From contig NZ_QPIX01000017.1 in assembly GCF_003337715.1 (NCBI RefSeq), forward strand, positions 1 through 64,000: DNA of 64,000 bases, written 5' to 3'. The position numbers and the translations under genes were made by a program. Source of the stretch: Ciceribacter lividus. Lineage in GTDB: Bacteria; Pseudomonadota; Alphaproteobacteria; Rhizobiales; Rhizobiaceae. This document shows, in pieces, positions 3,947 to 25,603 of this stretch (position 1 is the stretch's first letter; the number at the start of each line of letters is the position of its first letter). The notes under the pieces were generated by a model. It did not search any database and was not told where the DNA came from. It saw nothing but the letters and a program-made list of their open reading frames with translations.

Positions 3947-3982
3947 AAGTCGTCCGACGCTGCGAAGAGCGCCGGACGACTT
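3947..3982 (-). terminator. Stem-loop downstream of the SDR gene
   Basis: A 10-bp perfect stem, AAGTCGTCCG (3947-3956) with CGGACGACTT (3973-3982), can extend inward by further pairs. On the minus strand it follows the SDR stop codon by about 40 bases and is followed by a T-rich stretch (ggtataaagg). It probably terminates or attenuates the transport operon ahead of the lacI-type gene. Confidence 0.6.
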
Positions 3983-4020
3983 GTTTCACAAGAGGCCGTG
4001 GCGCGAACGGCGAATACGCA

Positions 4021-4917: not shown

Positions 4918-4971
4918 CTCATTCTCCATTGCTGCTGATATTGCTGTAGGGGATGTCGCCTGCCCGCGGGG

Positions 4972-6474: not shown

Positions 6475-6547
6475 GGTCTGCTCGAATCCCGCTCCGGTGT
6501 GAATGGATGCGGAAGCAGTCGGCTCCCGCACCCAGGTTCTGCAGGTG

Positions 6548-7489: not shown

Positions 7490-7573
7490 GAAATCCTCCT
7501 CCTCAACAAGCTCTCCTCGAGCCTGGATTCTTCGTGATTGACTTAGATGTTCGGCATGCTCATTCGTCTTGGC

Positions 7574-9724: not shown

Positions 9725-10786
9725 ATGGAATATCGGCAACTCGGCCGCTCTGGCCTCAAGGTCTCGGCGGTGAGCATGGGTACCTTCTCGTTCGGCGGCA
9801 AGGGCGATTTCGCCATGGTCGCAAGCCAGGGCGTCAAGGAGGCGCAACGGCTGGTCGATACCTGCATCGACGGCGGCATCAATCTCTTCGACACCGCCAA
9901 CATGTATTCCGCCGGACGTTCGGAGGAAATTCTCGGCGAGGTCCTCGAAGGACGTCGCGACAAGGTTCTCGTCTCCAGCAAGGCGCGAATGCGGATCGGG
10001 GACGGCCCCAACGACGAAGGCGTGTCACGCTATCACCTCATCCGCGAATGCGAGCGGAGCCTGAAGCGCCTGCGAACCGACCACATCGACATCTATTTCA
10101 TGCACGAATGGGACGGACTTACCCCGGCCGAAGAAATGCTCTCGGCGCTGGACACGTTGGTCAGTCAGGGAAAGGTCCGCTATGTCGGTTGCTCGAACTA
10201 TTCCGGCTGGCACATCATGAAGGTGCTGGGGATTGCGGATATCAAGAGTTATCCCCGCTTCGTCACGCAGCAGATCCACTACACGCTGGAAGCGCGGGAG
10301 GCGGAATACGAGCTCCTGCCGATTTCCGTGGATCAGGGCCTCGGCGTCATGGTCTGGAGCCCGCTTGCGGCCGGCCTTCTTTCAGGCGCGTTCCGCCGCG
10401 ATCGGACGCCTTCCGATTCGCGCCAGGCGGCCGGGTGGAGCGAACCTCCCATCCGCGACAAAGAGCGCCTGTGGACCATCGTCGACGTTCTGGTCGAGAT
10501 CGCCGAGGCAAGAGGCGCCACGCCGGCACAGGTCGCACTCGCCTGGACGCTGTCACGACCGGCGATTGCCTCCGTCGTTGTCGGCGGGCTGACCGAACAG
10601 CATTTCCGCGACAACATCGCCGCGGTCGACCTGGAGCTGAGCATTCAGGAACTGGAACGCCTGAATGCCGTCAGCCGGCTCCCCTACCTCTATCCCTATT
10701 GGCACCAGCACAATTTCGCGAAGGAACGCTTCTGCGCAGGCGACTGGGCGCTGCATCAGAGCTACGAGGATCTCGGGAAAATCTGA
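9725..10786 (+). CDS. Aldo/keto reductase
   Basis: A 353-aa NADPH-dependent oxidoreductase with a TIM-barrel layout. The catalytic tetrad is visible: Asp and Tyr in DTANMYSAG, Lys in VSSKA, and His in YFMHEWDG. The C-terminal cofactor segment SVVVGGLTEQHFRDN is also present. A good ribosome-binding site (AAGGAG) precedes the ATG. It lies 83 bases after the racemase-like gene and probably shares its operator-controlled promoter. It could reduce or oxidise a sugar aldehyde or keto-acid feeding the tetronate route. The reading frame covers the whole family length, with no sign of damage. Confidence 0.88.
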   Translation: MEYRQLGRSGLKVSAVSMGTFSFGGKGDFAMVASQGVKEAQRLVDTCIDGGINLFDTANMYSAGRSEEILGEVLEGRRDKVLVSSKARMRIGDGPNDEGVSRYHLIRECERSLKRLRTDHIDIYFMHEWDGLTPAEEMLSALDTLVSQGKVRYVGCSNYSGWHIMKVLGIADIKSYPRFVTQQIHYTLEAREAEYELLPISVDQGLGVMVWSPLAAGLLSGAFRRDRTPSDSRQAAGWSEPPIRDKERLWTIVDVLVEIAEARGATPAQVALAWTLSRPAIASVVVGGLTEQHFRDNIAAVDLELSIQELERLNAVSRLPYLYPYWHQHNFAKERFCAGDWALHQSYEDLGKI

Positions 10787-10842: not shown

Positions 10843-11616
10843 TCAGCCGGCGAACGCCTTCAGCCAGCCGAGCCCGGCGACGGTTTCGCCCGCCGGGCGG
10901 TATTCACAGCCGACATAGCCGGCATAGCCGAGCGCATCGAGCTCCCGCAGAACCCGGAAATCATTGAGTTCTCCGGTTCCCGGTTCGTTGCGTGCAGGCA
11001 CCGAGGCGATCTGGATGTGGCCGATGATCGGCATCAACTCACGTAGCCCACGGATCACGTCGCCATGGATGATCTGGCGATGGTAGATGTCGAACTGCAG
11101 CTTGAGATTGGGACGGGCCATATCGGCGATGAGGTCCGCGGCAAAATTGAAATCATTGAGGAAATAGCCCGGCATGTCGCGCGGGTTGATCGGCTCGATC
11201 AGCACGTCGAGACCCGCCTCCCCGGCTTTGTCGCAGGCGAACGCCAGCGAGGAACGGTACGTGGCGCGAGCCTTCGCGTCCGAACGATCGGCGAGCCCGC
11301 TCATCACATGCAGCCGCCCGACACCGGTCGCGCGCGCATAGCGCAATGCCGTCTCCACGGATTGGCGGAACTCCCCTTCCCTTCCTGGCAGCGCAGCCAG
11401 TCCACGTTCTCCGCCCGCCCAGTTCCCAGGCGGGAGATTGAACAGCGCCTGGGTCAGGCCGGCGGCGTCCAGCCGCGCGCGGATGACGTCCGGCTCGAAG
11501 TCGTAAGGGAATAGAAACTCGACCGCCTCGAAACCGGCGGCAGCGGCAGCCGCGAACCGGTCGAGAAATCCGGCCTCGTTGAACATCATGGTCAGATTTG
11601 CGGCAAAGCGTGGCAT
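10843..11616 (-). CDS. otnI: 2-oxo-tetronate isomerase, OtnI (hydroxypyruvate isomerase family)
   Basis: A 257-aa TIM-barrel isomerase of the Hyi family (MPRFAANLTMMF at the start, LIEPINPRDMPGYFL in the middle). The metal and catalytic acids expected of the family are visible: Glu in LIEPIN, Asp and His in LQFDIYH, His in IGHIQIA, Glu in VGCEYRP. In the acid-sugar pathway OtnI interconverts 2-oxo-tetronate and 3-oxo-tetronate. A GTG at 11622 overlaps the preceding stop codon, but the ATG at 11616 has GGAGG eight bases upstream and is preferred. It follows the LtnD-like dehydrogenase at once, so the two are a coupled pair. The otn neighbourhood favours the tetronate role over hydroxypyruvate isomerase proper. 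Confidence 0.85.
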   Translation of the reverse strand: MPRFAANLTMMFNEAGFLDRFAAAAAAGFEAVEFLFPYDFEPDVIRARLDAAGLTQALFNLPPGNWAGGERGLAALPGREGEFRQSVETALRYARATGVGRLHVMSGLADRSDAKARATYRSSLAFACDKAGEAGLDVLIEPINPRDMPGYFLNDFNFAADLIADMARPNLKLQFDIYHRQIIHGDVIRGLRELMPIIGHIQIASVPARNEPGTGELNDFRVLRELDALGYAGYVGCEYRPAGETVAGLGWLKAFAG

Positions 11617-11618
11617 GC

Positions 11619-12539
11619 TCACTGCCTCCCCGGCGCTTCGGGCAGTTTCAGTCCGGCGACCTGCGCCAGCAGGCGGGCAACCGAGGCGTCGTCGTCACGC
11701 CCCATGCCGGCGGCCGACGTCATGATGAACATCTGCAGGGCCGTCGAGGCGATCGACAGCGGGAACTTCAGGTCCCGCCCGATATCGGAAACGATCCCCA
11801 GATCCTTCGTGAAGATATCGATCGCGCTCCGCGGCGCGTAATCGCCCTCGAGGATATGCGGCACGCGATTTTCGAACATCCAGGAGTTGCCGGCAGACGC
11901 GGTGATGACTTCGTAGACCTTGTCTATGTCGAGGCCCAGAGCCTTGGCGAAAGTGATGGCTTCGCAGGCAGCGGCTATGTGAACGCCGGCCAGCAACTGA
12001 TTGACAATCTTGAACGAAGCGCCGATTCCGGCCCGATCCCCCAGCTCGTAGACCTTCTGCGCGATGGCGTCGAGCGCCGGGCGAACCTTGTCGAAGGCCT
12101 CCGGCCGGCCCGATGCCATGATCGTCAGCTGGCCCGCGGCGGCCTTGCCGGCGCCGCCGCTGATCGGCGCGTCGATATAGTCGCGCCCCTGCGCCTGCAC
12201 ACGCTCTTCGAAGCCGCGTGCCATGTCCGGCCCCATCGTGGCGAAGGAGAGCACGACGCCGCCCTTCGCCATCGCCGCAACCACACCGTGGTCGCCAAAG
12301 AGGACGGTTTCCGTCTGGTTCGCGTTGACGACGACGGTGATGACGACATCCGCGCCGTCGGCCGCCTTGGCCGGGTCGCCGTTCGCCTTTCCGCCGGCCT
12401 CGGCAAAGCGCGTCATTGCGGCCGCGCTGACGTCGCAGCCGGTCGTCTCGAAGCCGGCGCGCAGCAGCGAGGTGGCGACCCCCATTCCCATGGACCCGAG
12501 CCCGACGACGCAGACTTTCAAACCCGTTTGATTGCTCAT
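11619..12539 (-). CDS. ltnD: L-threonate dehydrogenase-like beta-hydroxyacid dehydrogenase, LtnD
   Basis: A 306-aa NAD-dependent dehydrogenase of the 3-hydroxyisobutyrate dehydrogenase family. It has the Rossmann motif VGLGSMGMG (about 12-20), the substrate-binding segment DAPISGGAGKAAAG (about 122-135) and the catalytic lysine in SFKIVNQLLAG. It sits directly before otnI and is divergent from otnK-otnC, the gene set described for L-threonate and D-erythronate breakdown. In that scheme LtnD oxidises L-threonate at C2 to 2-oxo-tetronate. The assignment is strong by context, but other four-carbon acids remain possible. Its promoter region contains operator site C. Confidence 0.85.
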   Translation of the reverse strand: MSNQTGLKVCVVGLGSMGMGVATSLLRAGFETTGCDVSAAAMTRFAEAGGKANGDPAKAADGADVVITVVVNANQTETVLFGDHGVVAAMAKGGVVLSFATMGPDMARGFEERVQAQGRDYIDAPISGGAGKAAAGQLTIMASGRPEAFDKVRPALDAIAQKVYELGDRAGIGASFKIVNQLLAGVHIAAACEAITFAKALGLDIDKVYEVITASAGNSWMFENRVPHILEGDYAPRSAIDIFTKDLGIVSDIGRDLKFPLSIASTALQMFIMTSAAGMGRDDDASVARLLAQVAGLKLPEAPGRQ

Positions 12540-12612
12540 CTATGAAAACACCTTCCGATCCGTCGTCATCATGCCGCTCCGCAGGCGCTTGCTTTTCCTC
12601 TCCCGGAAAAGT

Positions 12613-12630
12613 AATGATAGCGTTGCCACT
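12613..12630. promoter_or_regulatory. LacI-type operator, site C
   Basis: AATGATAGCGTTGCCACT matches sites A and B at 13 of 18 positions, with every difference a transition, and fits TGRYAGCGYTGYCA exactly. It lies between the divergent ltnD and otnK genes, where one repressor could control both directions. Confidence 0.6.
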
Positions 12631-12717
12631 ACATGGTTAGCCCATCTGCGAATTCCATTGCAAGCCCTTATTTTCGCCAGAAGATCAACGGCTTCGATGC
12701 GTTTCCGGAGGGCCGGC

Positions 12718-12737
12718 CCGCGGCCGACCGGCCGCGG
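12718..12737 (+). promoter_or_regulatory. GC-rich hairpin in the otnK leader
   Basis: CCGCGGCCG and CGGCCGCGG form a perfect 9-bp inverted repeat with only two bases between the arms. It ends nine bases before a strong GGGAGG ribosome-binding site and 19 bases before the TTG start of otnK. It may restrict ribosome access or mark a transcription pause; no function is shown. Confidence 0.4.
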
Positions 12738-12756
12738 CCATATCTGGGAGGAAGAA

Positions 12757-14040
12757 TTGCTGATTGGCGCTGTTGCCGACGACATCACCGGGGCCACGGA
12801 CCTGTGCCTCATGCTCTCTCGCGAGGGCATGCGCACGATCCAGGTGATCGGCGTGCCCACTGATGATGTCGCGTTTTCCGATGCGGATGCCGTCGTCGTT
12901 GCCCTGAAATCGCGCACGATCCCGGCCGCAGAGGCGGTCGAAATGTCGTGTACCTCCGCCCGCGCCCTTCTGGCCGCCGGCGCCGAACAGCTCATCTTCA
13001 AATACTGTTCGACATTCGATTCGACGGATGCCGGCAATATCGGGCCGGTCGCCGAAGCGCTGCAGGATCTGACCGGCGCGCCGGTGACGATCGCCTGTCC
13101 GTCGTTTCCGGCCGCCGGGCGCACGGTCTACAAGGGGCACCTCTTCGTCGGAGACAGGCTGCTCTCGGAAAGTCCGCTCAAGGATCATCCGCTGACCCCG
13201 ATGCGCGATCCGGACCTCGTCCGTGTGCTGCAGCGGCAATGCAGCCGGCCGGTGGGTCTCGTGCAGGCCGAGACCATCGCGAAGGGTCCCGACGCCGTGA
13301 AGGCCGCCTTCGCCGAGCAATACGCCGTCGGCAAGCGCATATTGATCGTCGACACGCTGAGCGATGCCGATCTCAGGACCATTGGCAAGGCCTGCGCCGG
13401 GATGAAGCTCGTGACGGGCGGTTCCGGCGTCGCCATGGGCTTGCCGGAGAATTTCAGGCAGACGCGCGGATTCGTTCCGCCGCCGCAGGAGGCCCGGATG
13501 GCGGCCCCGGCGGGCCGCGCGGCCATTCTCGCCGGCTCGTGCTCGGCGGCGACGCGCGGCCAGATCGAGGCGGCGAAAGCGGCCGGGCTGCCCGTGCTGC
13601 GGCTCGACATCGCCGTCGTCGCGGATGGGCGACAGACGGCCGCTGATCTCGCCCAGTGGGCGATCAACATGCCGGCCGATCGACCGCCGCTGATCTACTC
13701 CAGCGCCGGTCCCGACGAACTGGCCGAGATCCAGACGCGGATGGGACGCCACGAGTCCGGCGCCCTGGTGGAAAGAACCTTGGCGGACGTCGCGCGTCGC
13801 CTCGCGGGCGCCGGTTTCTCCCGCTTTCTCGTCGCCGGCGGGGAGACGTCCGGCGCGATCGTCGAGGCGCTCGGTGTCAAGGTCCTGCTGATCGGGCCGG
13901 AGATCGACCCGGGCGTGCCGTGGACGCGCAGCATTTCGGGTCCCGATCTCGCACTGGCGCTCAAATCGGGAAATTTCGGTGCCACGGACTTCTTCCTGAA
14001 GGCCTGGGAATTGCTGGAAGCGGAGACCGAAGATGCATGA
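12757..14040 (+). CDS. otnK: 3-oxo-tetronate 4-kinase, OtnK (DUF1537 family)
   Basis: A 427-aa four-carbon acid-sugar kinase. Family motifs are in order: ADDITGATD at the N-terminus, KYCSTFDSTDAGNIGP in the first domain, and the long block with CPSFPAAGRTVYKGHLFVGD and SPLKDHPLTPMRDPDLVR. A C-terminal nucleotide-binding region follows (LAGSCSAATRGQI, VAGGETSGAIVEALG). The start is a TTG at 12757, chosen because GGGAGGAAG lies just upstream and the protein then begins at the conserved ADD segment. Longer in-frame starts reach into the promoter region and operator C. It phosphorylates 3-oxo-tetronate for the decarboxylase OtnC, whose gene overlaps it by eight bases. Confidence 0.9.
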   Translation: MLIGAVADDITGATDLCLMLSREGMRTIQVIGVPTDDVAFSDADAVVVALKSRTIPAAEAVEMSCTSARALLAAGAEQLIFKYCSTFDSTDAGNIGPVAEALQDLTGAPVTIACPSFPAAGRTVYKGHLFVGDRLLSESPLKDHPLTPMRDPDLVRVLQRQCSRPVGLVQAETIAKGPDAVKAAFAEQYAVGKRILIVDTLSDADLRTIGKACAGMKLVTGGSGVAMGLPENFRQTRGFVPPPQEARMAAPAGRAAILAGSCSAATRGQIEAAKAAGLPVLRLDIAVVADGRQTAADLAQWAINMPADRPPLIYSSAGPDELAEIQTRMGRHESGALVERTLADVARRLAGAGFSRFLVAGGETSGAIVEALGVKVLLIGPEIDPGVPWTRSISGPDLALALKSGNFGATDFFLKAWELLEAETEDA

Positions 14041-14674
14041 TCTCAACCGTCTGCGTGACGAAGTGTGCCGCGTCGGACAGTCGCTGTTTCAAAGGGGGCT
14101 GACCTCAGGATCGACCGGCAATATCTCGGTCCGGACGGCCGACGGCGGCTGGCTGATGACGCCGACCAATGCCTCGCTCGGCAATCTCGACCCGTCCCGC
14201 CTATCCCTGTTCGACGCGGAGGGCCGTTTCATCGATGGAGACGCGCCGACGAAGGAAGCGTTCCTGCATTTTTCGATGTACGGCGAGCGTGCGGATGCCG
14301 GTGCCGTCGTGCACCTCCATTCGACCCATTCGACGGCTGTCAGCATCATGGCCGATGTCGACCCGGAAGACGTGCTGCCGGCCCTGACCGCCTATTACGT
14401 CATGCGCGTCGGGCGCCTGCCACTCGTTCCCTATTACGCGCCCGGCGATCAGGCACTCGCCGAGGCGGTGCGCAGCCTCGCCAGCCGCCACCACGCCATG
14501 CTGCTCGCCAATCATGGACCGGTCGTCGCCGGGACCAGTCTCGCCAACGCGCAGTATGCAACGGAAGAGCTGGAAGAGACGGCAAAACTCTTCCTGATGC
14601 TGCAGAACCACGCCAAGCGCGTTCTCACACCCGAGCAGGTCGCGGATCTGCGCCGACGCTTCGCCCTTCCCTGA
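14033..14674 (+). CDS. otnC: 3-oxo-tetronate 4-phosphate decarboxylase, OtnC (class II aldolase family)
   Basis: A 213-aa class II aldolase/adducin-fold enzyme. The phosphate-binding segment SGSTGNISVR (about 24-33), the conserved acid in PTKEAFLH, and the zinc ligands in VHLHSTHS and LANHGPVV are all intact. In the DUF1537 pathway OtnC decarboxylates 3-oxo-tetronate 4-phosphate to dihydroxyacetone phosphate and carbon dioxide. The eight-base overlap with otnK suggests translational coupling. A fuculose-phosphate aldolase-like reaction is the alternative, but the neighbours point to OtnC. Confidence 0.88.
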   Translation: MHDLNRLRDEVCRVGQSLFQRGLTSGSTGNISVRTADGGWLMTPTNASLGNLDPSRLSLFDAEGRFIDGDAPTKEAFLHFSMYGERADAGAVVHLHSTHSTAVSIMADVDPEDVLPALTAYYVMRVGRLPLVPYYAPGDQALAEAVRSLASRHHAMLLANHGPVVAGTSLANAQYATEELEETAKLFLMLQNHAKRVLTPEQVADLRRRFALP

Positions 14675-14727
14675 CCGGCCGAGCCGATCAGCAAACCCGA
14701 TTTTCGATACATTTCCAGGAGAAAACT

Positions 14728-15630
14728 ATGAACACGACGGCAAATGAAACGGTGGGCTTCGTCGGGGTCGGCCTCATGGGCCACGGCATGGCCAAGAACA
14801 TCGTCGAAAAGGGCTATCCCTTGACGGTCATCGCCCACCGGAACCGCAAGCCGATCGAAGACCTCGTTGCCCGCGGCGCGACGGAAGCTAAGTCGCTCGA
14901 GGAGCTCGCAGCCGCGTCCACCATCGTCTTTCTCTGCCTCACCAGTTCGAGAGAGGTCGAGGCCGTCGTCAACGCCATGAAGCCGAAGCTTGGCCGTGGC
15001 GCGGTCATCGTCGACTGTTCGACGGGAGACCCCAGCGTCACCGCCCGGCTGGCGGAGGAACTGAAGGCGCTCGGTGTCCATTTCGCCGACGCCCCCTTGA
15101 GCCGAACGCCGAAGGAAGCCTGGGAAGGCACGCTCGATGCGATGGTCGGCGCCGATGATGATATCTTCGCACGAATCCGGCCGGTGATTGCGACCTGGGC
15201 CGGGAAGATCGTTCACATCGGCGGCATCGCCGACGGTCACCGGATGAAGCTGCTGAACAACTTCATCGCCCTTGGCATGGGGGCGCTTTTCGCGGAAGCG
15301 ATAGCGCTGTCACGCAAGGTGGGGATCTCGGTCGACCGGTTCGACAGCGTGATCCGCGGAGGCCGCATGGACAGCGGCTTCTACCAGACCTTCATGGGCT
15401 ATGTCCTCGAAGGCAACAGGGAAGCGCACCGGTTCACGTTGTCGAACGCCTACAAGGATCTGAAATACCTGGAATCCATGGCGAATGCGGCGACCGTCGC
15501 GACGCCGCTCGCCAGCGCGACCAAGAACTCCTATGCGGTCGCGGTCGCCGGCGGCGGCGGCGGACCGGAAGACTACGTTCCGCACCTCGCCGACTTCATC
15601 GCGAGACTCAACGGGCTGGAGACGAAGTAG
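14728..15630 (+). CDS. Variant NAD(P)-dependent beta-hydroxyacid dehydrogenase
   Basis: A 300-aa protein of the 3-hydroxyisobutyrate dehydrogenase family. It has the Rossmann motif VGVGLMGHGMA and the catalytic lysine in GHRMKLLNNF. The usual substrate-binding SGG motif is replaced: after DAPL the sequence reads SRTPKEAWEGT. This separates it from the LtnD-like protein at 11619 and implies a different substrate. The ATG at 14728 has AGGAG nine bases upstream. It is the last gene of the otnK-otnC operon, 53 bases downstream. It may admit a second acid sugar or a reduced intermediate to the pathway. Confidence 0.82.
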   Translation: MNTTANETVGFVGVGLMGHGMAKNIVEKGYPLTVIAHRNRKPIEDLVARGATEAKSLEELAAASTIVFLCLTSSREVEAVVNAMKPKLGRGAVIVDCSTGDPSVTARLAEELKALGVHFADAPLSRTPKEAWEGTLDAMVGADDDIFARIRPVIATWAGKIVHIGGIADGHRMKLLNNFIALGMGALFAEAIALSRKVGISVDRFDSVIRGGRMDSGFYQTFMGYVLEGNREAHRFTLSNAYKDLKYLESMANAATVATPLASATKNSYAVAVAGGGGGPEDYVPHLADFIARLNGLETK

Positions 15631-15753
15631 GTCGGCGAACCATCCGCCGCCGTTGCGCCTGTCTGCGGGTGTTCCATCGATGCGTTTCTCATTCGCCGCA
15701 GCGGGCATACACCCACGAGCGCCTGGTTCTATTCGCTCAGGATTGCGCACTCT

Positions 15754-15781
15754 GCCGGAAGCGACCCCGCTTGCTTCCGGC
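15754..15781. terminator. Stem-loop between convergent dehydrogenase and lacI-type genes
   Basis: GCCGGAAGC (15754-15762) pairs perfectly with GCTTCCGGC (15773-15781) around a ten-base loop. It is five bases from the stop codon of the leftward LacI-family gene, so it most likely ends that transcript. Confidence 0.6.
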
Positions 15782-15786
15782 GCGTC

Positions 15787-16809
15787 TCAGAGATTTTCCT
15801 TCAGCAGGATCTCGATGCGTATCCGTTCCTGCGACACAATGGGTTCGCGCTGTTCCAGGCGCGCGCGCATGATGCGGGTCGCGCTTCTGACGGCATGGCC
15901 AGGGTCCTGGGCGATGACGGCATCGATCCTGTCGTCACGGAGCGCTTCCTCGCTGAAGGGCGTGAGCTCGTGGACGACCACGGTCAACGGCCGCGGGTCG
16001 GTGACCGCCTCGATGGCGGAGACCGGTACCCTTGCCTCGGCGCTCAGCACGTAGACGGCTTCAATATCCGGGTTGTGTTCCAGCATCCTGCGGATCACGA
16101 GGCCGGCGCGACGTTCGTCGCCATAGGTTTCCACCGAAGGCAAGGGGACGAGGTGCGGGAACTGGTCGTGGATGATCCTGTCGAAGCCCAGCCTGCGCTC
16201 TATGCTGTCCTGCGCCATCATGGTTTCTGCCACGACCATGATTTTTCCCGGAGTGCTCGCGAGAAACCGGCCGACCAGCTTTCCCGCCGTGGCGCCGGCG
16301 GCGAAATTGTTCACGCCGACGAAATCCGCCGCCGGCAGCTTTTCGTGACCTGAAAGAAATTGAACGACCTTGATGCCGCGCTCGATCAGCCGGGCCATGG
16401 CGTCGCGAACCTGCGGCGATTCCGGCGCCATGATCGCGACACCGTCGAGTTCGCCCGGCTCAAGGCCGGAGAGATACCTCGCGACCGCATGCGGATCGGA
16501 CATCGGCATCTGCACGAGATCGATGTCGGTGAGATCGGAGCGGAGTGCCTCGTGCGCCTCCCTCACCTCCCGCAGGATCCGTTGGAGATACTGATCGCCC
16601 GCGAGCGGCAGGACGAAGCGGAAGCGATAGATGCGGTTGCGTGCGAGATTGACGGCCGCCGGATTGCGCACGAAGCCGATCCGCTCGATCGCCTCGTTCA
16701 CCTTCCGCGCCGCCTTCGCGCTGACATTCGGCCGATCGTTCAGCACACGGTCCACCGTGGCAAGACTGACACCTGCGGCTTCCGCGAGGTCCTTGGCTGT
16801 GGGTCTCAT
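15787..16809 (-). CDS. LacI-family regulator of the GlpSTPQUV-like transporter operon
   Basis: A 340-aa LacI/GalR protein. The N-terminal helix-turn-helix (PTAKDLAEAAGVSLATVDRV, about 3-22) and hinge region (GFVRNPAAVNLARNR) precede a sugar-binding-like effector domain (FRFVLPLAGDQYLQRI onward). It is divergent from the ABC transporter starting at 17107. The intergenic region carries two perfect 18-20 bp palindromes whose centres are 30 bases apart; these are its likely operators and would also give autoregulation. The ligand is probably the transported polyol or triose, by association with the dihydroxyacetone kinase at the end of the operon. Confidence 0.9.
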   Translation of the reverse strand: MRPTAKDLAEAAGVSLATVDRVLNDRPNVSAKAARKVNEAIERIGFVRNPAAVNLARNRIYRFRFVLPLAGDQYLQRILREVREAHEALRSDLTDIDLVQMPMSDPHAVARYLSGLEPGELDGVAIMAPESPQVRDAMARLIERGIKVVQFLSGHEKLPAADFVGVNNFAAGATAGKLVGRFLASTPGKIMVVAETMMAQDSIERRLGFDRIIHDQFPHLVPLPSVETYGDERRAGLVIRRMLEHNPDIEAVYVLSAEARVPVSAIEAVTDPRPLTVVVHELTPFSEEALRDDRIDAVIAQDPGHAVRSATRIMRARLEQREPIVSQERIRIEILLKENL

Positions 16810-16880
16810 GACGCCTTTCTACATATCGACACCGGAGTCGGCATAGACTTCTCCAACAATTTCAAGCGAAAAGCAAGAAA

Positions 16881-16898
16881 TTGAGGTGCGCACCTCAA
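16881..16898. promoter_or_regulatory. LacI-type operator, perfect 18-bp palindrome (copy 1)
   Basis: TTGAGGTGCGCACCTCAA is fully self-complementary with a central GCGC. It lies 72 bases upstream of the leftward lacI-type start and is identical to the core of the second copy. Confidence 0.85.
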
Positions 16899-16909
16899 AA
16901 ATTCCTTGC

Positions 16910-16929
16910 ATTGAGGTGCGCACCTCAAT
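16910..16929. promoter_or_regulatory. LacI-type operator, perfect 20-bp palindrome (copy 2)
   Basis: ATTGAGGTGCGCACCTCAAT repeats the first palindrome with one extra base pair at each end. The centre-to-centre distance is 30 bases, close to three helical turns, so two dimers would bind the same face of the DNA. Confidence 0.85.
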
Positions 16930-17106
16930 TATAGACTCGTCCAGGGTCGAGAACCCGGACGCGAACTGCATCCGGCAAGCTCTCGATATCGCGGCCGGTG
17001 GAGGAAAGTTGCCGGCCCGGAGGACTGAGAAACGCATTGGTTGCCCTGGAGGGGGCGTCGAACGCATCCCGATGGAGATCGGGATCGGTCAAGGGAGGAG
17101 AACGTC

Positions 17107-18441
17107 ATGAAATCAGCATTCCTGAAATCCACGGTCGCCGCGGGCGCGCTCGCCTGGTCGAGCCTGTCGGGCGCGACCGCAGCCAAGGCCGACGAACTCA
17201 CATTGTGCTGGGCGGCCTGGGACCCGGCCAACGCGCTGGTCGAACTCAGCAAGGATTTCGAAGCCAAGTCCGGCCACAAGATGAAGTTCGAATTCGTGCC
17301 GTGGCCGAACTTCGCCGACCGCATGCTCAACGAGCTGAATTCCGGCGGCAAGCTGTGCGACCTGATGATCGGCGACAGCCAGTGGATCGGCGGCGCCGCC
17401 GAGAACGGCCAGTATGTGAAGCTCAACGATTTCTTCGACAAGGAAGGAATCAAGATGGAGAACTTCATCCCTGCGACCGTCGTCGGTTATGCCGAATGGC
17501 CGAAGAACTCGCCGAACTACTGGGCGCTTCCGGCCTTCGGTGACGTGGTCGGCTGGACCTATCGCAAGGACTGGTTCTCCCGCCCCGAACTGCAGGACGA
17601 ATTCAAGAAGAAGTACGGCCGCGATCTCGCCGTGCCGAAGACCTTCGCGGAACTCAAGGATATCGCCGAGTTCTTCCAGGGGCGCGACATTGACGGCAAA
17701 ACCGTCTACGGCGCGGCGATCTACACCGAGCGAGGATCGGAAGGCATCACCATGGGGGCGATGGACGCCCTCTATTCCTTCGGCTTCGAATACCAGAACC
17801 CCGACAAGCCCTACGACATGGAGGGCTTCGTCAACTCGCCCCAGGCGATCGCAGGTCTCGAATACTACAAGTCGCTCTACGACTGCTGCACGCCTCCCGG
17901 ATCGTCCGATGCCTACATGTCGGAGAACATCGACGCCTACAAATCGGGCCAGGTCGCGTTGCAGATGAACTTCGCCTTCATCTGGCCGGGGATCAACGCC
18001 GACCCGAATGTCGGCGGCGACAAGTCCGGCTATTTCCCCAATCCTGCAGGCCCTGACGGCAAGCAGTTCGCCCAGCTCGGCGGCCAGGGCATCTCGGTGG
18101 TTGCGGCCTCCGCGAAGCAGGATGCCGCACTCCAGTATATCAAGTGGTTCGCCCAGCCCGAGATCCAGCAGAAGTGGTGGTCGCTCGGCGGCTACTCCGC
18201 ACTCCGCTCGGTCGTGGAGGATCCGGGTTTTGCCACCAGCCAGCCCTATGCCCAGACCTTCCTCGACTCCATGGCCATCGTGAAGGATTTCTGGGCGGAA
18301 CCGTCCTATGCTTCACTTCTGCAGGCTTCGCAAAAGCGCTTCCACGACTATGTGATCGCCGGCCAGGGCACGGCCAAGGAAGCCCTCGACGGCCTCGTCA
18401 AGGACTGGACCGAGGTCTTCGAGGACGAAGGCAAGATCTGA
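17107..18441 (+). CDS. ABC transporter sugar/polyol-binding protein (family 1, MalE-like)
   Basis: A 444-aa periplasmic binding protein. A Sec-type signal peptide (hydrophobic run TVAAGALAWSSLSGATAA) is followed by ELTLCWAAWDPANALVEL and the family-1 body. The ATG at 17107 is preceded by GGGAGG and gives a normal signal peptide; the extra 22 residues of the longer frame do not. It is the first gene of the binding protein, permease, permease, small membrane protein, ATPase, ATPase, Dha kinase operon. A 10-bp hairpin right after it (18484-18510) probably keeps binding-protein mRNA more abundant than the rest. Confidence 0.92.
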   Translation: MKSAFLKSTVAAGALAWSSLSGATAAKADELTLCWAAWDPANALVELSKDFEAKSGHKMKFEFVPWPNFADRMLNELNSGGKLCDLMIGDSQWIGGAAENGQYVKLNDFFDKEGIKMENFIPATVVGYAEWPKNSPNYWALPAFGDVVGWTYRKDWFSRPELQDEFKKKYGRDLAVPKTFAELKDIAEFFQGRDIDGKTVYGAAIYTERGSEGITMGAMDALYSFGFEYQNPDKPYDMEGFVNSPQAIAGLEYYKSLYDCCTPPGSSDAYMSENIDAYKSGQVALQMNFAFIWPGINADPNVGGDKSGYFPNPAGPDGKQFAQLGGQGISVVAASAKQDAALQYIKWFAQPEIQQKWWSLGGYSALRSVVEDPGFATSQPYAQTFLDSMAIVKDFWAEPSYASLLQASQKRFHDYVIAGQGTAKEALDGLVKDWTEVFEDEGKI

Positions 18442-18483
18442 TCCCCTGCCCCGGCTCTCGCGACCCGGTGGCCATCCGTCCAA

Positions 18484-18510
18484 GCGGTGCCGGCATCATT
18501 CCGGCACCGC
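18484..18510 (+). terminator. Intercistronic stem-loop after the binding protein gene
   Basis: GCGGTGCCGG (18484-18493) pairs with CCGGCACCGC (18501-18510) around a seven-base loop, followed by a T-rich stretch (cattcctttcttgtt). It probably acts as a leaky terminator or mRNA-stabilising end between the binding protein and permease genes. Confidence 0.65.
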
Positions 18511-18542
18511 CCGCTCATTCCTTTCTTGTTGGGGGTTAGCCC

Positions 18543-19490
18543 ATGTCCGAGAGCGCCATCGACCGCCTCGCGCGCGCAACGCCGTCCGGAGTCTCCAGGA
18601 GAATTTCAGGCCTGTCCGACCGGGCGATCGCCTGGATCTTCGTGACGCCGACGATCCTTCTGCTCCTTGCGGTCAACATCTTTCCCCTGATCTGGACCGT
18701 CAGGCTGAGTTTCACCAATTTCCGGGTCAACAGGCCCGGCGAGGCGCCCGAGTTCGTCGGATTGCGCAATTACACCCGCATCCTGACCGATGGCGACATC
18801 TGGCTGACGATGCAGGCGACGGCGCATTTCCTGTTCTGGACGATCGCGCTGCAGGTGCTGATCGGCTTCACGCTCGCTTACCTGATCAACAAGAAGTTCC
18901 GCGGAAACGATCTCTGGACGACGATCATCGTACTGCCGATGATGCTGAGCCCGGCCGTCGTCGGCAACTTCTGGACCTTCCTCTACCAGCCGCAGATCGG
19001 CCTCTTCAACTACGTGGTCGGCTTCTTCAGCGGCGTCGACCCTTCGAGCTTCTCGATGATCGGCGACGTCTCGCTCGCACCCTGGGCGATCGTCATCGTC
19101 GACACCTGGATGTGGACGCCCTTCGTCATGCTGATCTGCCTCGCCGGACTGCGGTCGATCCCCGACAGCATTTACGAGGCTGCCGAATGCGACCGGGCAA
19201 GCAAATGGCGGCAGTTCTGGACCATCACCATTCCGCTGGTCCTGCCGTTCCTGATGCTCGCGATCCTGTTCCGGGGCATCGAGAACTTCAAGATGTTCGA
19301 CCTCGTCGTGCAGCTGACCGGTGGCGGGCCGGGTTCGGTGACCGAACTCACCTCGATCAACCTCAAGCGCGAGGCCTTCGAGAAATGGCGCACCGGCTAT
19401 GCCTCGGCCTATGCGGTGATCCTCTTCGTCACGGTCTTCGGCCTCGCCTCGATCTATGTGAAGGCGCTGAACAAGGTGAAAGAACGATGA
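18543..19490 (+). CDS. ABC transporter permease, MalF/GlpP-like
   Basis: A 315-aa inner-membrane permease of the MalF-type family, with about six hydrophobic segments (IAWIFVTPTILLLLAVNIFP is the first). The cytoplasmic EAA loop appears as YEAAECDRASKWRQFWTITIP (about 210-230), which docks on the ATPases. It has a ribosome-binding site in gttgggggttag. Its stop codon overlaps the start of the second permease (ATGA, 19487-19490). Position in the operon matches GlpP of the rhizobial glycerol transporter, but the substrate is not proven. Confidence 0.92.
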   Translation: MSESAIDRLARATPSGVSRRISGLSDRAIAWIFVTPTILLLLAVNIFPLIWTVRLSFTNFRVNRPGEAPEFVGLRNYTRILTDGDIWLTMQATAHFLFWTIALQVLIGFTLAYLINKKFRGNDLWTTIIVLPMMLSPAVVGNFWTFLYQPQIGLFNYVVGFFSGVDPSSFSMIGDVSLAPWAIVIVDTWMWTPFVMLICLAGLRSIPDSIYEAAECDRASKWRQFWTITIPLVLPFLMLAILFRGIENFKMFDLVVQLTGGGPGSVTELTSINLKREAFEKWRTGYASAYAVILFVTVFGLASIYVKALNKVKER

Positions 19491-20428
19491 GCAATTACTC
19501 CGTCACCGAGCCATCGGCTCGCCAGAAATGGTTCGCCGGCGCCCTTGTCGTCATCTATGCCGTCGTGACGATCATGCCGCTCGTCTGGATCATCGCCACC
19601 GGCTTCAAGAGCCCCTCCGACGCGATCGCCTATCCGCCGAAGGTGCTGTTCGAGCCGACGCTCGAGGGCTACGTGAACCTCTTCACGACCAGGACCCGCG
19701 TCTCCGATGCGGACCTCCAGGCCCTCGGCGAACCGAAGACCTGGTATGAAAGGCTTGTCCGGAAGGACGGACTGGTGATTGCCGGCCCCTCCCGCTTCGG
19801 CGAGCGCTTCTACAACTCGGTCGTGATCGGCTTCGGCTCGACCCTGCTCTGCATCGTGCTCGGGACGGCGGCGGCCTATGCCTTCTCGCGCTTCAAGGTG
19901 CCGCTGAAGGACGACCTTCTCTTCTTCATCCTGTCGACCCGCATGATGCCGCCGATCGCCGTCGCAATCCCGATCTTCCTGATGTTCCGGTCGCTCAGCC
20001 TGAGCGACACCCATGCAGGCCTGATCCTCCTCTATACGGCGGTGAATCTCTCGCTCTCGGTCTGGCTGCTCAAGGGCTTCATCGACGAGATCCCCGTCGA
20101 ATACGAGGAGGCGGCGCTGATCGACGGCTACACGCGCTTCCAGGCCTTCTACAAGGTCGTGCTGCCGCAGGCCGTGACGGGCATCGCCTCGACCGCGATC
20201 TTCTGCCTGATCTTCGCCTGGAACGAATATGCCTTCGCGGTGCTCCTGACCTCGGGCACGGCGCAGACCGCGCCGCCCTTCATTCCGACCATCATCGGCG
20301 TCAGCGGCCAGGACTGGCCGGCCGTCGCCGCCGGGGCCACGCTCTTCCTCGTTCCGGTCGTCGTCTTCACGATCGTCCTGCGCAAGCATCTCCTGCGCGG
20401 CATCACCTTCGGAGCCGTTCGAAAATGA
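19487..20428 (+). CDS. ABC transporter permease, MalG/GlpQ-like
   Basis: A 313-aa partner permease. The first membrane helix (ALVVIYAVVTIMPLVWIIATGF) is followed by a periplasmic loop, then the remaining helices and an EAA loop (EYEEAALIDGYTRFQAFYKVVLP). The start at 19487 overlaps the upstream stop codon; the much longer frame from 19112 is a shadow of the first permease. Its own stop codon overlaps the start of a small membrane protein gene, so all three are translationally coupled. Confidence 0.92.
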   Translation: MSNYSVTEPSARQKWFAGALVVIYAVVTIMPLVWIIATGFKSPSDAIAYPPKVLFEPTLEGYVNLFTTRTRVSDADLQALGEPKTWYERLVRKDGLVIAGPSRFGERFYNSVVIGFGSTLLCIVLGTAAAYAFSRFKVPLKDDLLFFILSTRMMPPIAVAIPIFLMFRSLSLSDTHAGLILLYTAVNLSLSVWLLKGFIDEIPVEYEEAALIDGYTRFQAFYKVVLPQAVTGIASTAIFCLIFAWNEYAFAVLLTSGTAQTAPPFIPTIIGVSGQDWPAVAAGATLFLVPVVVFTIVLRKHLLRGITFGAVRK

Positions 20429-20613
20429 ACCAATTCCTCAACAGGCTGCGCCGGCTGCGGCGTAACGAGTGGGAGCTTGTCGCCTCGGCGCTGATCGCTC
20501 TCGGCGTCTTCATGATGATGCAGCCCTTCACGCTGTCGCTCTATACCTATTCCTTCGTCGTGACATTGGTGGGCACCGTGATGTTCGTCATCGTCAGCCA
20601 CTTCCCGGAGTAA
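20425..20613 (+). CDS. Small two-helix membrane protein of the transporter operon
   Basis: A 62-aa protein with an Arg-rich N-terminus (NRLRRLRRNEWE) followed by two hydrophobic segments, about residues 19-35 (LVASALIALGVFMMMQP) and 40-58 (YTYSFVVTLVGTVMFVIVS). The ATGA overlap with the upstream permease and the three-base gap to the next ATPase show that it is a true gene. The rhizobial GlpSTPQUV transporter also has a small membrane protein (GlpU) between permeases and other parts, which supports a role as accessory subunit. I do not recognise the exact family. Confidence 0.75.
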   Translation: MNQFLNRLRRLRRNEWELVASALIALGVFMMMQPFTLSLYTYSFVVTLVGTVMFVIVSHFPE

Positions 20614-20616
20614 GAC

Positions 20617-21714
20617 ATGGCGCAGATCAGAATACAGAACCTGCGCAAGGAATTCGGCGCCTTCACCGCCGTCCAGTCATCGAGCTTCACGATCGAGGAC
20701 GGCGAGTTCTTCATGCTGCTCGGACCTTCCGGTTGCGGAAAGACCACCACCTTGCGGATGATGGCGGGCCTCGAGCTGCCGAGCAGCGGCGAGATCCATA
20801 TCGACGGCGAGGAGGTCGGCATGAAACCCGCCAGCCAGCGCGATATCGCCTTCGTCTTCCAGATGTTCGCGCTCTATCCGCACATGAACGTGCGCCGGAA
20901 CATTTCCTATCCGCTGCTGAGCCAGGGCGTTCCCAAGGCCGAAGTCAGGACACGGGTCGAGGAGGTGGCGAGAATCCTGCGGATCGAAGACATCCTCGAC
21001 AAGCCCGTGGGCGGATTGTCCGGCGGCGACCGCCAGCGTGTGGCGCTCGGCCGCGCAATCGTGCGCCGGCCGAAGGCCTTCTTCATGGACGAACCGCTCG
21101 GCGCACTCGACGCGGAATTCCGCGAGCACATGGCCGAGGAGCTTCGCGCCCTCCACGACCGGATCGGTGCAACCACCGTCTATGTGACCCACGACCAGCT
21201 CGAGGCGATGCAGATGGGTGACAAGATCGTCGTCATGAACCATGGCGTGGTCGAGCAGTTCGGCCAGCCGCAACAGATCTACGACTGGCCGGCGACCCGT
21301 TTCGTCGCCGACTTCATCGGTTCGCCGCCGATGAATTTCCTGGAGTTCGAGGGCATGATCGGCATCGGCGGCGACCACGTCGTTCTCGACGGGCAACGCT
21401 TTGCGGTTCCGGTGTCGCGGCAGGGCGCCGAGGGAAGGCTGACGCTCGGCGTCCGGCCTGAGCATGTCCGCTTTTCGGATACGTCAGCCTATCGCGGCAA
21501 GGTGCTCGCGACCGAGTATCTCGGCACGACCCAGATCATCACGCTCTCGACGCCGAACGGCAATATCAAGGCGCGGATATCCTCCGCCGACACCGTCAGG
21601 GAGGGCGAGATGGTCGGCCTGGAGTTCGACAACCGCACGCTGAGCATCTTTGCCGGTGAGCGCGGACATGCCCTGATCTCCGAAGGAAACGAAGGAGTGC
21701 TGCGCCATGGCTGA
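20617..21714 (+). CDS. ABC transporter ATPase, MalK/UgpC type (GlpS/T-like), first copy
   Basis: A 365-aa ATPase of the CUT1 importer family. Walker A is GPSGCGKTT (about 37-45), the signature reads LSGGDRQRV with Asp where Gln is usual, and Walker B plus D-loop are AFFMDEPLGALD. A C-terminal OB-fold regulatory domain (LGVRPEHVRF) follows. A second, different ATPase gene overlaps its end by eight bases. Two separate ATPases per transporter, most likely a heterodimer, are a hallmark of the GlpST arrangement. Confidence 0.93.
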   Translation: MAQIRIQNLRKEFGAFTAVQSSSFTIEDGEFFMLLGPSGCGKTTTLRMMAGLELPSSGEIHIDGEEVGMKPASQRDIAFVFQMFALYPHMNVRRNISYPLLSQGVPKAEVRTRVEEVARILRIEDILDKPVGGLSGGDRQRVALGRAIVRRPKAFFMDEPLGALDAEFREHMAEELRALHDRIGATTVYVTHDQLEAMQMGDKIVVMNHGVVEQFGQPQQIYDWPATRFVADFIGSPPMNFLEFEGMIGIGGDHVVLDGQRFAVPVSRQGAEGRLTLGVRPEHVRFSDTSAYRGKVLATEYLGTTQIITLSTPNGNIKARISSADTVREGEMVGLEFDNRTLSIFAGERGHALISEGNEGVLRHG

Positions 21715-22702
21715 GGTCGTTCTCCAGTCCATCACGAAAAACTTCGCGGGCCACACGGCGCTCGCCGACGTGTCGATGACCATACCCGACGGCTCCTTCG
21801 TCGTGCTGCTCGGCCCGACGGGTGCAGGCAAGACGACCACGCTCAGGATGATTTCGGGACTCGATCATCCCGACCGCGGCGACGTCTTCATCGGCGGCCG
21901 GTCGATGAAGGGCCTCACGCCCGCAGAGCGCAACGTCGCGATGGTCTTCCAGCAATATTCGCTCTACCCGCACCTGACCGTGCGCGAGAACCTCGCCTTC
22001 CCGCTGAAGTCACCGCTTCTGAAAACCCCGGCCGGCGAAATCGAGCGCAAGGTGCGCGCCGTCGCCGAGACGCTCCGTATCGCCCACAAGCTCGACAACA
22101 AGGCGACGGCGCTTTCGGGCGGGGAGATGCAGCGGGTGTCGATCGGCCGCGCGCTCGTCCGCTCGCCCGAGATATACCTGATGGACGAGCCGTTGAGTTC
22201 GCTCGACGCGAAACTGAGGGCCGACCTGCGCGTGGAGCTGAAGAGCATCCAGGCGAATTCCGGGGCGACCCTCCTCTATGTCACGCACGATCAGGTCGAG
22301 GCCATGACCATGGCGACCCATATCGGTGTCCTGCATCACGGGCGGCTGGTGCAGTTCGGCTCGCCGCGGGACGTCTATGAACGTCCGGTGAGCCTCTATG
22401 CCGCCCAGCGGCTCGGGCAGCCTCGGATCAACGTTCTGCCGGCGAACCTCTTCCCGGCGGCACCCCCGCGTGCGGCGAGCATCGGCCTTCGGCCGGAGCA
22501 CATCCGCCAAGGCAGCGGCGAGGACAGTCTGGTCACGCGCGTCGAAAGGCTCGGCGACCAGACGCGCTTGCACCTGTCCTTCCGCGGACACACCATCGTC
22601 ACCGTCACCGAACCCCACACGACCCGGCGTGACGGAGAGATCGTCAAGATCGAACCCGTTGATCCACTCTACTTCGATGCCGACGGCATGCGACTCGCTT
22701 AA
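21707..22702 (+). CDS. ABC transporter ATPase, MalK/UgpC type (GlpS/T-like), second copy
   Basis: A 331-aa ATPase with Walker A GPTGAGKTT (about 36-44), signature LSGGEMQRV and Walker B IYLMDEPLSSLD. A shortened C-terminal regulatory domain contains LRPEHIRQGSG. It differs clearly from the preceding ATPase, which supports a heterodimeric motor. The start overlaps the upstream stop by eight bases. Only 11 bases separate it from the dihydroxyacetone kinase gene. Confidence 0.93.
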   Translation: MAEVVLQSITKNFAGHTALADVSMTIPDGSFVVLLGPTGAGKTTTLRMISGLDHPDRGDVFIGGRSMKGLTPAERNVAMVFQQYSLYPHLTVRENLAFPLKSPLLKTPAGEIERKVRAVAETLRIAHKLDNKATALSGGEMQRVSIGRALVRSPEIYLMDEPLSSLDAKLRADLRVELKSIQANSGATLLYVTHDQVEAMTMATHIGVLHHGRLVQFGSPRDVYERPVSLYAAQRLGQPRINVLPANLFPAAPPRAASIGLRPEHIRQGSGEDSLVTRVERLGDQTRLHLSFRGHTIVTVTEPHTTRRDGEIVKIEPVDPLYFDADGMRLA

Positions 22703-22713
22703 GGAAGGTTCCC

Positions 22714-24369
22714 ATGGCTCAGTTCATCAACAAGAAAGAAGACGTCGTCATCGAGGCCGTGGAGGGCCTGCTGGCAACGGGCGCCGTGCCGCTGGCGCGC
22801 CTCGACGGCTATCCGCATATCCGCGTGATCGTCCGGGCGGACTGGGACAAGTCCAAAGTCGCGCTCGTCTCGGGCGGCGGATCCGGCCACGAGCCGGCGC
22901 ATGCGGGCTTCGTCGGTGCGGGCATGCTGACCGCGGCGGTCTGCGGCGACGTCTTCGCTTCGCCCAGCGTCGATGCCGTGCTCGCGGGTATCCTCGCGGT
23001 CACCGGTCCGGCCGGCTGCCTCCTGATCGTCAAGAACTACACCGGCGACCGCCTGAATTTCGGACTGGCGGCGGAGCGAGCCCGGGCCTTCGGACTCAAT
23101 GTCGGCATGGTGATCGTCGACGACGACATCGCCCTGCCCGATGTGCCGCAGGCCCGCGGCGTCGCCGGAACGCTGTTTGTGCACAAGATCGCCGGAGCGC
23201 TCGCCGAAAGCGGCGCTGACCTCGAAACGGTGACCGCTGCCGCGCGCAGGGTCATTGCGGCGACGAAGAGCATCGGCATGTCGCTCGATACTTGCACCGT
23301 TCCGGGGTCGCCGAAGGAAAACCGCATCCCGGCGGGCATGGCCGAACTCGGCCTCGGAATCCATGGCGAGGCCGGGGTGGAGCAGGTCGACTTCTCCGGC
23401 GCCCGATCGGCGATGACCGCCGTCGTCGCCAAGCTGCGGTCGGAAATCGGAGACAAGCCGCACGTCGCGTTGATCAACAATCTCGGCGGGACGTCGGTTC
23501 TCGAAATGTCGATCCTCGCCCATGAGCTGATCCAGTCCGACATCGGCGGGCTGATCAGCCACGTCGTCGGTCCGGCGGCCATGATGACCTCGCTCGACAT
23601 GCGCGGCTTCTCCATCTCGCTTTACCCGGCCGAGGCCGACGATATCGCCGCACTTGCCGAGCCGGTCGGCCCTGCCGCCTGGCCGGGGCTCTCTCCTGTC
23701 CGGCCGGTATCGGTCGTCGCCTTGCCGGATGGGCTCACCCCGATCATGCCGCTGCCCTCCGACCACAGGCCGACCCGCGATTTCGTCACCGGCTGCTGCA
23801 ACGTGCTGATCGCGGCCGAGGAGAGCCTCAATGCGCTCGACGCCAAATCCGGTGACGGCGACACCGGGTCGACGCTCGCCGGTGCCGCCCGCGCCCTCGT
23901 CAAGGCGATGGACAGGCTGCCGCTTTCCGACCATACGCAACTCTTCCGGGCGATCGGGCTCGAACTCAGCCAGACGATGGGCGGCTCTTCCGGCGTCCTG
24001 CTGGCGATCTTCTTTGCCGCGGCCGGCGACGGTGCATCGAGTGGTCTGCCGATCCGGGACGCTCTCAGGGCCGGGCTTGCGCGCATGCAGGAAATCGGCG
24101 GGGCGAAGGTGGGTGACCGTACGATGGTCGATGCGCTTGCCCCTGCTCTCGATGCGCTCGAAGGTGGACTGAAGGCGGCGGCGGAGGCGGCGCGCGCCGG
24201 CGCCGACCGGACCGCGACGCTCGCCAAGGCCCATGCCGGCCGTGCCGCCTATCTCAGCTCGCGGCAGCTCCTGGGGCACGCCGATCCGGGCGCCGAGGCC
24301 GTGGCGTTGCTGTTCGAATTCCTGGCCCGTTCCGCGAACGGTGAGGCGGTGAGCGCACTGGCCCGCTAG
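22714..24369 (+). CDS. dhaK: Single-chain ATP-dependent dihydroxyacetone kinase (DhaK-DhaL fusion)
   Basis: A 551-aa kinase that phosphorylates dihydroxyacetone (and often glyceraldehyde) to the phosphate. The DhaK half has GGGSGHEPAHAGFVG (about 54-68) and the substrate-binding histidine in LGIHGEAG (H217), where dihydroxyacetone is held as a hemiaminal. The DhaL half carries the nucleotide and magnesium motifs SGDGDTGSTLAGAA, GGSSGVLL and GDRTMVDAL. Length and order match the Citrobacter-type ATP-dependent enzyme rather than the PTS-dependent DhaKLM system. Co-transcription with the transporter suggests that it acts on the imported compound or its first oxidation product. A triose or tetrose kinase role is possible. 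Confidence 0.92.
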   Translation: MAQFINKKEDVVIEAVEGLLATGAVPLARLDGYPHIRVIVRADWDKSKVALVSGGGSGHEPAHAGFVGAGMLTAAVCGDVFASPSVDAVLAGILAVTGPAGCLLIVKNYTGDRLNFGLAAERARAFGLNVGMVIVDDDIALPDVPQARGVAGTLFVHKIAGALAESGADLETVTAAARRVIAATKSIGMSLDTCTVPGSPKENRIPAGMAELGLGIHGEAGVEQVDFSGARSAMTAVVAKLRSEIGDKPHVALINNLGGTSVLEMSILAHELIQSDIGGLISHVVGPAAMMTSLDMRGFSISLYPAEADDIAALAEPVGPAAWPGLSPVRPVSVVALPDGLTPIMPLPSDHRPTRDFVTGCCNVLIAAEESLNALDAKSGDGDTGSTLAGAARALVKAMDRLPLSDHTQLFRAIGLELSQTMGGSSGVLLAIFFAAAGDGASSGLPIRDALRAGLARMQEIGGAKVGDRTMVDALAPALDALEGGLKAAAEAARAGADRTATLAKAHAGRAAYLSSRQLLGHADPGAEAVALLFEFLARSANGEAVSALAR

Positions 24370-24460
24370 GAAGCAACGGACGTCGGGGAGACCTCGCCCC
24401 CGTCTGCGGCAATCACTTCAATAACGTGAGAGCGCACATGGCCGGCAGATGGCGAGTGCT

Positions 24461-25366: not shown

Positions 25367-25574
25367 CCCTCTCTCTTCCCTCAACCCTTCAGTTATAGAT
25401 CCGACGTGTTCGCGAACCGCGACGCGTCCGACACTAAACTGCGTCCGGCAACACAATCCGCTTCTCTTCCACCTCTGCACGCAAGATTCGACTGAAAGGC
25501 GCGCACCTTCGGCATCCATTCCCTGCCCACGGGACTAGTCTTGCTCTCACCCCTTCCTCCAGAAGTTCCAATCT

Positions 25575-25603
25575 CCCCTCCCCGAGGGGCGACCGGCTCG
25601 GTC
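25575..25603 (+). repeat. Two adjacent short hairpins in the deacetylase leader
   Basis: CCCCTC with GAGGGG (25575-25589) and GACCG with CGGTC (25591-25603) are consecutive inverted repeats 28 bases before the deacetylase start. The style resembles short rhizobial intergenic palindromic elements, but the element is too short to name. The rest of the 264-base divergent gap shows nothing further. Confidence 0.4.

Follow-up and report, generated by a model that had tools for sequence, protein, structure and literature searches.

The neighbourhood of a lacI-type gene in Ciceribacter lividus contains the same 18-bp palindrome, TTGAGGTGCGCACCTCAA, in two exact copies, placed between this gene and a divergently transcribed ABC transporter operon. 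The question raised by this locus is whether the two copies form a functional element and, if so, which protein reads them and to what effect. The locus was examined in a stretch of 64,000 nucleotides (contig NZ_QPIX01000017.1, positions 1–64,000; referred to below as the window) and compared with related loci in other genomes.

The twin palindromes and their genomic setting

The original prediction, that the palindrome occurs twice without a mismatch, with 30 bp between the centres, in the region separating lacI from the ABC operon, was borne out on both counts. As shown in Table 1, the copies (designated O1 and O2) are centred at 16889.5 and 16919.5, and begin 72 and 102 bp, respectively, from the start of lacI. 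Both are 18-bp palindromes with a CG centre, and O2 lengthens to a perfect 20-mer (16910–16929).

Table 1. Predicted regulatory sites and genes of the lacI–ABC region (positions in the window).
Feature	Position	Strand	Remarks
LacI-family regulator, 340 aa	15787..16809	-	helix SLATVDR; Pfam LacI PF00356, E 8.1e-13; Peripla_BP_4 PF13407, E 6.6e-29
Operator O1 (predicted)	16881..16898	.	TTGAGGTGCGCACCTCAA; upstream of -35; kept in 30/30 loci
-35 element TTGCAT (CTTGC type)	16906..16911	+	abuts O2; column conservation, 72 oriented loci
Operator O2 (predicted)	16911..16928	.	same 18-mer, TTGAGGTGCGCACCTCAA; fills -35/-10 spacer of ABC promoter
-10 element TATAGA	16930..16935	+	column conservation, 72 oriented loci
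Solute-binding protein, first gene of operon	17107..18441	+	Pfam SBP_bac_1, E 8.2e-23
ABC permease A	18543..19490	+	Pfam BPD_transp_1
ABC permease B	19487..20428	+	Pfam BPD_transp_1
Small hydrophobic protein, 62 aa	20425..20613	+	similar-sized gene annotated at like place in three related operons
UgpC/MalK-type ATPase 1	20617..21714	+	profile matches
UgpC/MalK-type ATPase 2	21707..22702	+	profile matches
Dihydroxyacetone-kinase-type DhaK-DhaL kinase, last gene of conserved operon here	22714..24369	+	Pfam Dak1, Dak2

At up to three mismatches, 0.04 matches to TTGAGGTGCGCACCTCAA are expected in the window, and two matches were obtained in none of 100 shuffles. O1 and O2 are also the only exact 18-mer repeats of the window separated by less than 200 bp. 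A lone palindrome of this length is not rare, since the window contains three perfect 18-bp palindromes of any sequence; 40 Markov resamples averaged 0.65 and never exceeded 2. The list of perfect palindromes in the window also includes GCGCCGGAATTCCGGCGC (48573–48590), present there as a single copy.

A search of the 4.52-Mb genome (32 contigs) revealed no copy of TTGAGGTGCGCACCTCAA beyond these two at up to three mismatches. The core TGAGGTRCGYACCTCA was detected, with at most two mismatches, at four places (O1, O2 and two sites preceding a XylR-type lacI gene on contig C9), and with at most three at 12, vs 14 for the reversed control. The concern attached to the original prediction, that the palindrome might be frequent in unrelated places, thus does not apply to this genome, whereas the 397 genomes of the order do contain a few lone one-mismatch copies away from this lacI. 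Matches with at most one mismatch were found in 14 of the 397, eight of which hold nine sites whose 3-kb stretch contains no relative of this LacI. One of the nine (L043) is actually a 31-bp pair preceding the solute-binding gene; the other eight are single, vs about 1.4 expected (uniform bases). The sequence TTGAGGTGCGCAACTCAA is present singly in three genomes of the order (L033, L038 and L046), near gene starts as judged by eye, with none of the genes of the system in the 3-kb stretch; these lone copies are perhaps the site of another regulator.

Both domains typical of the regulator family, the N-terminal LacI HTH and the C-terminal sugar-binding domain, were recognized by Pfam. Its best relative of solved structure is an arabinose-binding protein, and those of the solute-binding protein are weak maltose/trehalose binders; neither match decides the ligand. 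The DhaK-type kinase hints at a short ketose; this protein scores 479.6 bits against NCBIfam dak_ATP, which is under the curated cut-off (574.95). The same operon gene order is annotated on plasmids of Ensifer canadensis, Agrobacterium vitis and Alloyangia pacifica, and the nearest named plasmid match, in Ciceribacter thiooxidans, carries a LacI 95% identical to the regulator of the window. The literature searched yielded no description of this ABC-plus-DhaK uptake operon, and the kinase cluster of PMC5017801 is a different one, described there as PTS-linked.

Genes of tetronate catabolism lie beside lacI (10843–15630), with four assignments, all over the NCBIfam cut-offs: 2-oxo-tetronate isomerase, L-threonate dehydrogenase, 3-oxo-tetronate kinase and 3-oxo-tetronate 4-phosphate decarboxylase. 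They were dropped as candidate parts of the system, because none is annotated within 10 kb of lacI in three related plasmid regions. The window also contains a second sugar ABC system, of the ribose/xylose type (2833–8584), with a GntR/IdnR-like LacI regulator (2833–3870).

Conservation of the spacing and promoter register

Of 100 genomes, 75 gave a lacI match with an E value of 1e-40 or lower, and 34 of these matches display 65–100% identity (the own genome is included in both counts). Thirty of the 34 loci were fetched (29 relatives and the locus of the window), and every one of them carries the site pair at exactly 30 bp, while the distance of O1 from lacI varies from 64 to 77 bp. Fifteen of these loci have two perfect 18-mers, eight have one and seven have none. 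Mean majority identity reaches 0.97 in O1 and 0.98 in O2; it drops to 0.80 between the sites, to 0.76 on the upstream side of the pair and to 0.45 on the downstream side. Exact duplication had been taken to indicate strong selection: selection on the sites is supported by these values, but exactness is kept in just half of the loci (15/30). The conserved trait is the spacing together with the core TGAGGTRCGYACCTCA, rather than exact duplication.

A pattern scan for two core sites 17–47 bp apart, applied to genomes of 84,980 species, gave 90 stretches, of which 73 have a spacing of 30 bp, 14 of 31 bp and three of 23 bp, a count that favours near-consensus pairs, since two such sites were required. 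No other permitted value was encountered in the 87 alphaproteobacterial stretches. The same solute-binding-protein gene starts within 450 bp in 83 of the 87; the remaining four (L073, L088, L098 and L127) end too early on that side. The three 23-bp stretches (L113, L114 and L128) are three contigs of one Prevotellaceae assembly, unrelated to the operon system; in one of them (L128, 5205–5464) the palindrome core forms a head-to-tail tandem array of about 11.6 copies.

In a motif-free test, any two CG-centred palindromes with a spacing of 14–59 bp were considered in 62 distinct divergent loci, many of which stem from the pattern scan (the 30 lacI loci do not). The best pair was at 30 bp in 58 of them. 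The four exceptions (L228–L231) have regulators closer to the XylR type and gaps longer than 500 bp. At 10.5 bp per turn, 30–31 bp correspond to 2.86–2.95 turns, i.e. about 51 to 17 degrees under three turns.

A strict scan for E. coli-type sigma-70 promoters found no promoter, and the ABC promoter is argued from column conservation. Promoter columns were measured in 72 oriented loci (the own locus and 71 of 80 stretches, the rest being without the solute-binding gene or enough flank). In the 60 loci with a 30-bp spacing, the -35 columns abutting O2 are T and G in 100% of cases, and in the 12 loci with a 31-bp spacing they are T, A and C, again in 100%. Most of the 72 loci have CTTGC at this place; TAGAC, TGGAC, TTGAC and TTTAC also occur. 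Past O2, the second base is T in 93% of the 60 loci and in 92% of the 12, and the third is A in 93% and 100%, respectively. The conserved -35 on one side of O2 and the TA on the other place O2 in the promoter spacer. Where the spacing is 31 bp, the additional base lies between O1 and the -35 element, which indicates that O2 and the promoter are locked together and only O1 has been shifted by one. If transcription starts 7 bp past the -10 element, O1 would cover approximately -61 to -44, with its centre near -52.

The twin palindromes are a real functional element. Readings other than protein operators would be terminator hairpins, a mobile repeat or chance, and one copy does resemble a terminator hairpin by its score on the minus strand. 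However, no RNA family match was obtained for 15500–25600, the central CG, the spacing and the promoter register are kept over many genera, and other genome copies are absent. Such non-operator origins have a negligible probability: a chance repeat, a terminator hairpin and an RNA element were rejected on the basis of the shuffles, palindrome statistics, RNA family search and comparative data.

Position and recognition helix of the regulator

Thirty genomes that have the pair but no lacI in view were searched for LacI at E 1e-40. It was found in 27; the three without a match at this threshold are assemblies of 2.2–2.7 Mb. In 23 of the 30 genomes, LacI is encoded about 40–58 bp behind the kinase gene, in two it is of the divergent type (the stretch having been cut), and in two it lies elsewhere, not beside the operon. 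The order twin, solute-binding protein, permease, ATPase, kinase, lacI was observed on one contig in all 21 refetched genomes (L254–L274) and in L222, while in the 23rd operon-end genome the kinase gene and lacI are adjacent and the twin is not joined to them on one fetched stretch (a short piece). The spacing is 30 bp in 13 of the 23 operon-end genomes and 31 bp in 10. One Boseongicola assembly contains two kinase-lacI ends (L167 and L183), the second on a contig of 5971 bp, which does not show its promoter.

These loci bear on the possibility that the two sites are independent operators, with O2 repressing the ABC promoter and O1 autorepressing the divergent lacI, by dimers that do not interact. 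Such an arrangement would agree with the location of O1, 72 bp from the start of lacI and adjoining a conserved minus-strand CTTGC, and with the commonness of autoregulation, given in PMC4052901 as 72% of LacI-type regulators. However, O1 is kept at 30–31 bp in the 22 genomes in which lacI is the last gene of the operon, and so it is not merely the operator of lacI. Moreover, independence does not require a spacing that stays fixed despite very different operon flanks, and no good lacI promoter could be read by eye in the 30-locus alignment. We consider independent operators unlikely.

In a class-wide sample of 385 genomes, the permease was matched at E 1e-110 in 22 (own included), and 20 of the 21 others were fetched. 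The site pair is present in just four of these 20 operons: L219, L222, L225 and L218, the half-sites of the last being partly recoded (L219 and L222 are probably the same records as two of the pattern-scan stretches). Relatives with a codirectional lacI have one clear site, which is O1-like in L058, L059 and L060 and O2-like in L221, while L220 has a single degenerate site (L220 and L221 come from the class-wide sample). One site can therefore suffice, the pair is not universal, and the family, having such single-site members, is not one of obligate pairs.

The single-site loci also raise the possibility of a dual mode, in which occupied O1 additionally acts positively on the operon or on lacI, e.g. 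through contact with polymerase while O2 is free. A block of the O2 type cannot explain L058, L059 and L060, in which a site at the place of O1 stands alone upstream of a TTGAC -35 element. On the other hand, O2 alone in L221 fits plain repression, and the O1-only loci might repress too, by hindering polymerase; a positive role of O1 is quite improbable.

The other 14 of the 20 class-sample operons are without the pair: nine have no LacI relative in the stretch, four (L228–L231) have XylR-like regulators and one (L237) a distant one. In 12 of the 14, the kinase is more distant (37–42%, vs 61–65% in L223 and L224). The pair thus goes with a single branch of the transporter family and with this regulator type.

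In the LacI tree (81 rows), the divergent type forms one clade (100/99) and the operon-end type two, of 16 and 6 rows. The transporter tree has 47 rows, since 13 of 60, all of the divergent type and from short loci without the permease, were dropped. In it, the operon-end types (14 + 3 rows) form one clade (98/99) that excludes L056 and L101; the regulators of these two (rows L056 and L159) group with the smaller operon-end clade in the LacI tree (100/97). This suggests exchange of the regulator with retention of the twin, and it does no more than suggest it because no well-supported branches compel the scattering of the smaller operon-end type (three rows in the transporter tree) among the larger one.

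A further line of evidence comes from L218, the only one of 58 divergent loci to have the helix SRATVDR (the others have SLATVDR or SLATIDR). Its sites are TGACACACGTGCCTCA and TGCAACACGTGTGTCA, with the spacing unchanged at 30 bp, and both outer half-sites have CA in place of GG at positions 5 and 4 from the centre. According to PMC2978694, these positions are tied to residues 15 and 16 of the recognition helix, and CA and GG are named there as alternatives within one class. The covariation is a single case and is partial, since TGAGGC still stands in the inner half of the first site and TGCAAC in that of the second. When genomes near L218 (sets of 14 and 43) were searched for more recoded helices, nothing was obtained beyond L218 itself and one SLATVDR protein. 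Even so limited, it is evidence that this LacI would bind both sites. Predicted binding of the twin by the protein encoded at 15787–16809 is thus supported by genomic association and one case of covariation.

Fourteen LacI HTHs were found in the own genome, and the SLATVDR helix is present in just two, the regulator of the window and the XylR-type protein, which is encoded upstream of xylB-xylA and was named from these neighbours. The promoter of the latter has the sites TGAGGTACGTAAATCA and TGAGATACGTACCTCA, 21 bp apart (contig C9, 178674–178710; L047, approximately 10674–10711). Given the identical helix and these sites, the twin might be read mainly or also by this paralogue, which would create cross-talk between xylose use and the operon. 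Yet across genomes the pair tracks the window-type lacI and the operon (30/30), and the site centre is TGCGCA in both window copies vs TACGTA in the XylR sites, though both centres are present in the wider family. Reading by the paralogue is very unlikely.

Proposed mode of action and relation to known systems

From the sites, their spacing and promoter fit, their degree of conservation and the regulator type and operon that accompany them, we infer, with considerable confidence, that the twin is the double operator of the LacI encoded at 15787–16809. One dimer on O2, exactly within the -35/-10 spacer of the ABC-DhaK promoter, would exclude RNA polymerase. Repression would be tightened by another dimer on O1, some three turns of the helix further upstream and on nearly the same face, most likely through dimer-dimer cooperation or because upstream contacts of the polymerase are blocked; this dimer would also cover the region before lacI. 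Both dimers would be released by a small ligand, probably the imported ketose or polyol or a product of it. PurR is a dimeric member of the LacI family, and since the regulator (340 aa) is about as long as PurR (341-aa model), we do not propose looping by a tetramer.

More tentatively, the twin may be a two-dimer landing pad with a fixed distance of 30–31 bp that has outlived a move of lacI, an apparent exchange of regulator lineage and a change of the helix (L218), and that would define a TVDR class with the half-site TGAGGTRCG. The natural 30-bp, 31-bp, O1-only, O2-only and partly recoded versions offer a ready test system for cooperation of LacI dimers over three turns. The locus also provides a predicted operator for TVDR, a LacI helix not covered by the published TVSR code, and a regulatory signature by which the ABC-plus-DhaK uptake operon could be annotated. 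General ideas of gene regulation are unchanged: this is an ordinary kind of bacterial switch, well conserved.

The operator core, searched as a letter string in five variants, gave no match in the papers searched, though the regulon may be listed in supplementary tables or in RegPrecise. With the TVSR class of PMC2978694 the system shares the CG centre and covariation of helix residues 15/16 with bases 5/4, seen here in one natural case. It differs in having a TVDR helix and an operator with A at position 6 and G at 7, in place of the TVSR helix and G at position 6 of that class; the main text of PMC2978694 contains no occurrence of 'TVDR'. The XylR-type LacI of the own genome has an identical recognition helix, a near-identical half-site and paired sites, but its pair is imperfect and 21 bp apart, it is associated with a different operon, and protein identity is 39%.

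NrdR, as reported in PMC12051234, also uses two boxes in helical phase, and it is their spacing that decides repression: 15–17 bp and about 26 bp between the boxes repress, and the other lengths tested do not. The protein family and ligand are unrelated, which makes this an analogy of working only.

A close parallel is found in the tandem-site LacI regulons. PMC4052901 reports 1118 operons preceded by tandem LacI-type sites, whose distances peak at 13, 22 and 32 bp; cooperativity is argued there for 22 and 32 bp, and RafR and ScrR are given as having double sites only. The present system resembles these regulons in its even, CG-centred palindromes, their location in one intergenic region (kept in all 30 orthologous loci), and a predicted scope of local operon and regulator. 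It differs from them in the spacing of 30/31 bp (2.86–2.95 turns), which falls between the peaks at 22 and 32, and in the existence of single-site relatives. Cooperative binding on one DNA face, which formed part of the original prediction, is plausible by analogy, 30–31 bp being near the 32-bp peak. Tandem LacI-family operators separated by near-whole helical turns have already been described in PMC4052901, and the present pair is a clean instance of such tandem sites.
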